From a candidate division BRC1 bacterium HGW-BRC1-1 (GTDB lineage Bacteria; Sumerlaeota; Sumerlaeia; Sumerlaeales; Sumerlaeaceae), in NCBI GenBank assembly GCA_002842095.1, contig PHCB01000020.1, positions 1 through 46,079 of the forward strand: a stretch of 46,079 nucleotides of DNA, read 5' to 3'. This document shows, in pieces, positions 41,113-46,079 of this stretch. Under the pieces are notes generated by a model, which was given only the letters and a program-made list of their open reading frames with translations, did not search any database and was not told the DNA's origin. Each line of letters begins with the position of its first letter. The stretch's first letter is position 1. The position numbers and the translations under genes are program-made.

Positions 41113-41440
41113 CCACACGTTAAAACCCGGCGTCGATTTCTGCCTTTCCCCCTTCTTCCACGAACGCCGCCATTCCGTCGTGTTCCTCAGCAAAGTGGTC
41201 GACGCCGACGGCGCCGACATACTTCCGCAACCCCGGCACTGAGGACGAGACGCTGACAGTGAGCTATAGACCATCAAACAAGCCGCGCTACGCACCGACC
41301 TCCGCTGGAACCCCACCCGAGGCTGGTTCGCCACCGCCGCCCACAGCGTCCCCGATACCTTTGCCGCCCTCCTCGCCCAACAAGGCGGGCGGGTAGAGCA
41401 TGTAAGCGATGGGCCGATTACGGGGCTGGAAAAAGGCTGA
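41113..41440 (+). pseudogene. Possible degraded coding remnant upstream of pheT
   Basis: This 468-bp gap (40986-41453) holds no intact gene. Two plus-strand stretches have protein-like composition but are broken. One runs 41113-41242 (FFHERRHSVVFLSKVVDADG, then TGA). The other runs 41270-41440 in a different frame without a start (RTDLRWNPTRGWFATAAHS ... ending LEKG). They could be pieces of one gene disrupted by frameshifts. The family is not recognised. Two direct copies of TTTCCCCCTTCTT lie near 41082 and 41147. Confidence 0.3.
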
Positions 41441-43997: not shown

Positions 43998-44131
43998 TGG
44001 CGTGGTCCTCCATCGCAGACTCGATGAGGACTCTTGGGCGGAGCCAATTTCCTCCCCGCTGGGGAGGAAATTGCCCTATCAATGAATTCCACGCCCAAGG
44101 TGTGGAGAATTTGTTCGATGGTCTTATTCAT
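43994..44131 (-). CDS. Small ORF (45 aa) between methylase and helicase
   Basis: The ATG at 44131 lies inside the last codons of the methylase frame (8-nt overlap), and its TGA overlaps the helicase GTG (GTGA). The first residues (MNKTIEQIL) resemble the helicase N-terminus (MSKAIEEIL). The middle is specified by a 29-bp hairpin, so the residues there (ISSPAGRKLAPP) are unlikely to be conserved protein. It may be an upstream copy of the helicase start interrupted by a hairpin element, or a coupling ORF. No family is recognised. Confidence 0.4.
44045..44073. repeat. Perfect 13-bp hairpin between methylase and helicase genes
   Basis: CAATTTCCTCCCC and GGGGAGGAAATTG are perfect arms with a 3-nt loop (GCT). 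It sits 48 nt before the helicase start and within the 45-codon ORF. The right arm in mRNA includes a GGGGAGGAAA-like sequence that can mimic or hide a ribosome binding site. It could be a translational switch or a small repeat element. Confidence 0.8.
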
Positions 44132-45707
44132 CATCGGCTTCATCGAGGTTCATCGCCCTGACCTGAGACTCGATGAATGCCTGCTCTTTTTGTGTAATGC
44201 CGTACTTTGCGTAAAGGGCTTCGTCCGTCCATGTGCGGTCCCATGTCTGCATTGGCACCCAAACGTATGTGGAGTGGGCCGCGTCCTGAGTGATCTTCCG
44301 CAGAGAAGCTATAAAACGAAAAAATCTCGTCGTGTAATATGACTGGAGACTCATAGCAGCCTTGCGTGAACCAACGTAAAAGAACAGGAACGACTGGGTG
44401 CAGACTGACGGCGACGGAGCAATGAGTGGTTTCCCTAATATTTGATGAGGCACTGCGTCGCCGCCGTTAAAAGCCTTGGGGACAAGGATCTTCCAAGTAT
44501 CAATCAGATGGGAACTCTTGGTGACCGCCTTTCTCCCGATGTAGCCCACGTCGCGCTTCATCTTGCGGATATAGTAAAGCGGCACATCTCCTGAACGCTC
44601 TGTTTCGTGAAAGCCATCGAAGTTTGATGTCCAACCGAACTCCTTATCGCGGGCAAGGATCGTGTTAATGGAGGCTTCACCACGGCCGATAACTTATTGT
44701 AGGATTGCTACGGCCCGCGCATCCCGGACAAAGACATCATATTCCCCAAGGTTACGTTGAATTGGTCCTTCGACCTCGTCCCCTCGAATTGTTGTGACTT
44801 TGCAGTCGCCGTCATGAGTTGCGTCCCATAGGAAGTAACAGACTCCGGCTTTTACTTCGACACCCGGGAACACATCGTTGGCCGCAGGATAATCTACCAA
44901 TTCGCGGATACGCGTGTCACCGAGCATGGTCTGACGGAACTCGCTGAGGCCGAGGCCAGAAGCCATCCAGCGTGAGGGGATAACCATGGTGAGGAATCGT
45001 GGCTGAAGCATCTTTGCCTGCTCGATGAAGTGCTGATAGATCGGACCGTCTCGTGTACCGCCGTCGCTTGCTAACTGATACGGCGGGTTCCCAATGATTA
45101 CGTCGAATTGCATATTACCTCCAAATATCTTGGCCAGCCGAGTCTTGATGTTGTCGGTGTGGATGAACGTGTAGGCGTGGGTTTCCAGACCTTTCGCTCG
45201 ATCAAAAACAGATTTTCCGGCGCCGCAGAATTTGCACCGTTCCCCGTCCCACGTGTGCTTGATGCGCTTGAACCAGATGTTGCCATCGTCGCCGGTGAAG
45301 GTCTTGGCGATGGAGTGCTTGCCCGTGGCGTGTTTCGAGCAATAGACACTGCGGCGCGCCAGCATGCTGGTGATTTGCGTGATGCCGATGCCGAACACCT
45401 GGTTCGTGAGGATGTGATCGACGCGCTTCTCCAGATCGGGAATCTGCTTCTCCAGCCCCTTGGTGAGGCGGCTGGTGATCTCGCGCAGGAAGACGCCGGA
45501 TTTCGTGCAGGGGTCGAGGAACTTCACCGTCTTGTCGGCCCAGAGGTTTGCGCCCTTGTGGTTGGCGGCCCACGCCTCGGCCAGCGTGTCGAGCATCCGG
45601 TTGGCGAACTCGGGCGGGGTGAACACCTCGTCGTTGGAGAGGTTCGCGATGCACGTCAGCACGTCCGGGTTGCGACCGCGCAGGGAAAAAGCGGCTTGGT
45701 CGGTCAT
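44124..45707 (-). pseudogene. N6-adenine DNA methyltransferase (Eco57I-like), interrupted by an in-frame TAA
   Basis: The protein would methylate adenine in DNA. Motif I is DPCTKSGVFLREI (65-77) and motif IV is VIIGNPPYQL (203-212). A Cys-rich insertion (C123, then CKFC at 158-161) may bind zinc. Codon 338 is TAA (44694-44696), after AVAILQ. The frame then continues with VIGRGEASINTILARDKEF and over 150 further residues to a TAA at 44124. One change, for example AAA to TAA, explains the break. Without the tail the likely target-recognition region is lost. ATG 45707 has AGAGG at 7 nt and overlaps the stop of the upstream gene (ATGA). Confidence 0.8.
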
Positions 45708-46079
45708 GGCTTGGCCTCTCCGGATGGGTCTGGCATTGGGGGCTTTTCGGGGTTGCACGGCCTCGTGCCCCGGCACGCCGGATAGCTGGTGCAGCCCCAG
45801 AACGATTGTCCGGCATGGGGGCCGCGCCGGGCCGTGCACCGGCGCATGGGCTTGTGGCAATTTGGGCAGGGGGGTGGGGTTGTTTTGTCGGACGGGTCGG
45901 ACATGTCAGACTTGTCTGACTGGTCCGACTTGTCCGACGCATTTTTTGTTGCTCGGGCTTTTACTCGCTCGCTGTAAAGTCTTTCGGTGAAGCCGCCCTC
46001 TTCCAGAAACGCGCGGCCCTGCTGCTCCATCAGGCGGCGCAGCAGATAGGCCGCCTGGTTTACCGCGCAAAGCATGGCA
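45704..46079 (-). CDS. Four-helix-bundle suffix domain protein with topoisomerase-type zinc finger (partial)
   Basis: The 5' end lies beyond the right edge. The visible part begins with the suffix segment MLCAVNQAAYLLRRLMEQQ ... FLEEGGFTERLYSER, typical of proteins that carry an upstream four-helix bundle. A Ser-Asp-Lys repeat linker follows, then a C4 zinc finger of the topoisomerase I type (CPNCHKPM ... FWGCTSYPACRGT). The linker is a 9-bp DNA tandem repeat. Four-helix-bundle relatives include 23S intervening-sequence proteins and Avd of diversity-generating retroelements; no such element is visible here. Its stop overlaps the methylase start, so it belongs to that operon. Confidence 0.75.
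   Translation of the reverse strand, partial: AMLCAVNQAAYLLRRLMEQQGRAFLEEGGFTERLYSERVKARATKNASDKSDQSDKSDMSDPSDKTTPPPCPNCHKPMRRCTARRGPHAGQSFWGCTSYPACRGTRPCNPEKPPMPDPSGEAKP
45887..45938 (+). repeat. Coding 9-bp tandem array GTCNGAC
   Basis: Six GTCNGAC units start at 45887, 45896, 45905, 45914, 45923 and 45932. On the minus strand they encode SDK/SDQ/SDM-type triplets in the linker of the zinc-finger protein. Each unit is an odd-length palindrome around N. Confidence 0.9.

Follow-up and report, generated by a model that had tools for sequence, protein, structure and literature searches.

A probable recent nonsense mutation at the catalytic/recognition domain boundary of the methyltransferase in a split Type ISP-like restriction-modification system

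A single TAA interrupts a DNA methyltransferase gene (M) on contig PHCB01000020.1 of the candidate division BRC1 bacterium HGW-BRC1-1, and the most probable account of it (roughly 0.72) is that a recent nonsense mutation, Lys338 to TAA, broke the M of a split Type ISP-like restriction-modification system, with loss of function. The window, meaning the whole 46,079-nucleotide stretch that was analysed, also carries an open nuclease-helicase partner gene (R; Table 1). M would normally consist of an adenine-N6 methyltransferase domain followed by a target-recognition domain (TRD), and with the TRD gone, modification would be lost and R would lose the subunit that directs it to DNA, leaving R tolerated and not yet decayed. 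The lesion is ordinary in kind, that of a dying restriction system, and it is instructive: it offers a specific explanation for an intact-looking nuclease-helicase beside a dead methylase, namely that one stop would disarm both in split Type ISP-like systems, and it cautions against reading such M-R pairs as paradoxical or toxic.

Table 1. Features of the M-R locus in the window and the related loci with an insertion between the two genes
Feature	Position or loci	Strand	Description and evidence
Segment, 164 bp	41271..41434	+	~90% identical to L080:9011-9174, on the far side of the second, truncated copy (contig C1)
R gene, 847 aa	41454..43997	-	GIY-YIG nuclease (MUG113-like), SF2 helicase (ResIII) and C-terminal helical region; open
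M/R junction	43998..44131	-	Relict R start ATG 44131 (MNKTIEQIL...), ~125-nt insertion with perfect hairpin 44045-44073, second R start GTG 43997
M gene 3' part, TRD	44124..44693	-	189 sense codons and natural TAA (44124-44126); PADLOC MTase_II 2.3e-15, dN/dS, HsdS-type fold alignment from residue 334
In-frame TAA, codon 338	44694..44696	-	Translation and alignment; relatives Lys 70/72, Arg 2/72
M gene 5' part	44697..45707	-	Codons 1-337, catalytic domain, Eco57I-family adenine-N6 MTase; Pfam Eco57I (PF07669) 2.4e-34, translation
Upstream partial gene, overlaps M start	45704..46078	-	Four-helix-bundle suffix domain and Top1-type zinc ribbon; NCBIfam TIGR04258 3.6e-14, Pfam Zn_ribbon_Top1
Loci with M/R junction insertion	L011, L013, L017, L022, L024, L031, L032, L035, L041, L046, L052, L053, L060, L069, L073, L076		

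The minus-strand frame from 45707 to 44124 translates as 337 codons, the TAA, 189 sense codons and a natural TAA, and no full-length product with both catalytic and recognition domains can be read from it, the internal TAA removing codons 338-527. The head, an adenine-N6 DNA methyltransferase by its Eco57I match, retains motif IV (NPPY, frame residues 207-210) and motif I in its family form (DPCTKSG), and shows 0 deviations from conserved family columns; the tail carries no further lesion along its full length and is homologous end to end to intact relatives such as L003, which is 88% identical over residues 1-527. A single family profile (PADLOC MTase_II, PDLC03375) covers the head (profile positions 5-150) and the tail (165-348), spanning the stop in register. 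The first-pass annotation of this DNA had described a single in-frame TAA splitting an otherwise intact methyltransferase, and the translation, the intact motifs I and IV and the homology throughout the tail bear it out; the 190 codons that it gave for the tail are right in that the frame stays open to the stop at 44124, but they comprise 189 sense codons and reach 190 only with that final stop.

A scan of bacterial and archaeal genomes returned 76 M loci, up to 88% identical, and the window was aligned with the 72 relatives that were long enough (73 rows). Identity among the aligned relatives is ~80% in the first 120 codons and ~40% after codon 330, and the Lys at the column of the stop, for which a check of conservation had been proposed, proves to be nearly invariant (37 AAG and 33 AAA codons); none of the 72 relatives has a stop in the column of codon 338 or ends at that position. 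Stops in three other loci were considered as lesions and rejected, those of L010 and L014 (codon 525) and that of L114 all lying at natural ends. The one-base path from AAA to TAA that had been suggested is feasible, in that a single A-to-T change would do, but it is not established; because the closest relatives mostly use AAG, and because the codon before the stop is CAA (Gln) in the window against their His (mostly CAT/CAC), more than one change may lie behind the stop. The search for close neighbours found no same-genus genomes other than the organism's own, and same-family genomes hold only intact M relatives that are 45-48% identical.

The tail has been under constraint until recently, or is so still. 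By the Nei-Gojobori method, omega (dN/dS) between the window and its near relatives is 0.05-0.13 for the head and 0.05-0.07 for the tail, within the range of the relatives among themselves, and of the changes private to the window at sites on which the eight near relatives are unanimous, 6 fall in the head against 2 in the tail. Since the tail (omega ~0.06) is no less constrained than the head, the stop is either recent or an error, and this constraint, together with a full tail free of other lesions, speaks for the recent inactivation that was among the earlier suggestions.

The organism's own assembly (34 contigs, 94.76% complete) contains one full M, with the stop, and one R. A second copy of M, on contig C1, is a stub of codons 1-188/191 that lies at the contig end and is followed by a gene other than R, which is missing there; the stub differs from the window M by a dS of 0.13 and a dN of 0.012. 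The window contig and C1 terminate at an identical base, with 99 bases in common up to that point, the pattern that a repeat leaves when it breaks an assembly graph. Because both copies lie at such contig ends and the assembly is ~95% complete, another, intact copy could exist in sequence that was not assembled; within the assembly there is no intact paralogue or donor copy of M, only the N-terminal stub. On C1, the place where R and the rest of M would lie is taken by a 273-aa ORF with no Pfam match (L080:9242-10063), and the 164-bp segment of Table 1 is the 3' end of a longer ORF on C1 and a fragment in the window.

The main rival to a genuine mutation is that the TAA arose as an error of sequencing or assembly, or represents a minority allele of a mixed population, while the gene of the living organism is intact; I regard this as unlikely. 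An undecayed tail is what an intact gene would show, a local error could cause the difference of two adjacent codons from the nearest relatives (CAA TAA against mostly CAT/CAC AAG), and the contig end suggests a short-read assembly. However, the stop site lies outside the stretch shared with the stub, which ends near 45130, and a collapse of the two copies cannot create it; errors do not seem frequent either, as 20 other window ORFs scanned against Pfam included none that was split (no pair of fragments hitting one family), and comparable stops occur in other family members, described below.

What the stop removes was judged from an AlphaFold model of the intact relative L003 (pLDDT 70, pTM 0.67), which is poor in the N-terminal third and good around and after the stop. 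Residue 338 falls inside a helix (330-341) of this model, and in fold comparisons the HsdM chains of Type I systems align only at ~170-330 and the EcoKI S and Esub1 chains from ~334 (Z 6-7 for both kinds of one-domain match), and M.TaqI, CamA and M.BseCI align across both M parts (Z ~12). On this modelled structure the stop separates the catalytic domain from the TRD at a domain boundary of M and takes away the whole TRD, a division with which the fall in identity along M is in keeping; the product would be a catalytic domain that cannot find its target sequence, and I infer that it is inactive. The suggestion of a tolerated short methylase is accordingly hard to sustain, because by the fold comparison the part lost is the entire recognition domain. 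The same boundary, lying between an HsdM-like and an HsdS-like part, and the constraint that persists in the tail would also suit a two-piece enzyme, with head and tail translated separately and acting together, or with the short catalytic piece served by a recognition subunit in trans, as HsdM is by HsdS. It is, however, quite improbable that the stop has in this way divided a fused M naturally in two, the catalytic piece acting with a recognition piece that is made separately or borrowed and R staying functional: the first in-frame ATG, GTG or TTG comes 36 codons past the stop (GTG 44585), already within the recognition domain and with no well-spaced ribosome-binding site, the stop sits within a predicted helix, and no aligned relative is split there.

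Phase-variable or programmed switching, whether through repeat slippage, recombination or readthrough of the stop, has a precedent in other restriction methylases that are phase-variable, for example Type III ModS (PMC8125046), and had been raised for this gene as well. Here it is the least credible of the readings, as no simple tandem repeat lies at the stop, the inverted repeats are only short and imperfect and do not flank a plausible switch, the assembly holds no other tail copy that could act as donor (the stub on C1 ends before the stop), and a TAA followed by G at a family-conserved Lys has no readthrough signature.

The closest parallel is with the Type ISP enzymes, such as LlaGI and LlaBIII, in which a nuclease, an SF2 helicase-like motor, a gamma-class adenine methyltransferase and a C-terminal TRD follow one another (PMC4872093), and the TRD, being in the same chain, serves modification and also triggers cleavage (PMC4872093; PMC3874165). 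Their functions come in the same order as here. A fold search with R, whose model is too poor (pTM 0.38) for a firm assignment, gave only generic SF2 matches and, weakly, PDB entry 4XQK. Unlike the single-chain Type ISP enzymes, the window has two separate genes, its nuclease is GIY-YIG/MUG113-like (by a weak Pfam match at the start of R, 0.0033) and not Mrr-like, and PDB sequence searches with R and with M gave no match at E 0.1. The family does include a single-chain relative, of 1417 aa, on the Pediococcus pentosaceus plasmid pRS5 (L140; nuclease-helicase-MTase-TRD), whose residues 15-634 match R at 34% and whose residues 939-1417 match M at 26%. The PADLOC profile REase_MTase_IIG (PDLC03626), a model of one fused chain with 1359 positions, takes in R at positions 181-798 and the two parts of M at 865-1117 and 1193-1359, although R and M are two genes in the window. 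There is also a likeness to Type I systems (HsdR/HsdM/HsdS), in that the motor-nuclease subunit is separate from the modification subunit and the folds of HsdM and HsdS match the parts of M before and after the stop, respectively, but no separate S gene is seen in the window, methyltransferase and TRD share one chain, and the nuclease is of the GIY-YIG kind. The best folds for M are those of M.TaqI, CamA and M.BseCI, with BREX BrxX/PglX following at Z 9-10, yet sequence identity to M.TaqI, CamA and PglX is ~10% and the operon is different; the M.TaqI, CamA and BREX PglX methyltransferases are not known to pair with a GIY-YIG helicase. The pair in the window is best read as a two-gene Type ISP-like system with a GIY-YIG nuclease. 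No paper describing such a GIY-YIG Type ISP-like family surfaced in a literature search at the level of titles and abstracts, and this widespread M-R family deserves biochemical typing.

That R is open, as first described, is confirmed: it runs its full length without a stop and is 80-87% identical to most relatives, across phyla, in an alignment of 36 sequences; it has 2 deviations from columns conserved at 97% or more and a dN/dS of ~0.09. Its nuclease assignment is seconded by the relatives, which are annotated as GIY-YIG nuclease family proteins, and its motor by the ResIII helicase match; a family search identified no recognition domain in R. This high identity of R between bacteria of different phyla, while M varies far more, suggests a wide recent horizontal spread of R that may have gone along with exchange of the recognition part of M, and a conserved R beside an M tail at ~40% fits an M that supplies variable specificity to a common motor. 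By analogy with the Type ISP enzymes, R presumably needs M for targeting. Because M carries recognition and R has no identified recognition domain, losing the TRD would take away modification and targeting at once, and an open R is then no paradox, even if R could keep some non-specific activity. The surprise voiced in the first-pass annotation at an open nuclease beside a dead methylase rested on a Type II picture and falls away if, as it seems, M supplies the recognition, all the more so as other loci pair an open R with a broken M; those loci, and the failure to assign a recognition domain in R, speak against R being an independent Type II endonuclease, one that finds its site unaided and makes loss of M lethal.

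Among these loci, L068 (4823-8020) is a natural fusion in which what remains of M, up to about residue 238, reads in frame into R from about its residue 20, the TRD being deleted and R open, and two IMG/VR loci that were chosen by their R combine an open R with a TGA at M codon 421 (L101) or a TAA at codon 450 of the aligned M segment (L120). In L054 a TAG interrupts M, and the remaining 1.5 kb shows no match to R. The reverse case also occurs: in L060, L072 and L075 it is R that is interrupted, beside a full-length M. All these numbers are small, and some of the lesions, coming from draft contigs, may be errors.

The surroundings of the two genes vary as well. In most relatives (L003, L004, L012 and others; L141:3733-4380) a 215-aa methyltransferase-like gene with MmeI_Mtase/N6_Mtase matches lies just upstream of M or one gene away; in the window the suffix gene takes that place and the contig then ends, and the 215-aa gene was not found in the organism's own genome by a search run with no positive control, the contig ending just upstream. 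Between M and R, most relatives have an R start that directly overlaps the M stop, and this junction is also an insertion site, at which relatives carry genes for RhuM, a DUF1016/YhcG nuclease, BRO-N, PIN, DUF559 or an IS200-like transposase, in some cases together with duplicates of R's opening 31-57 codons. The junction of the window is a small version of such an insertion, with a hairpin.
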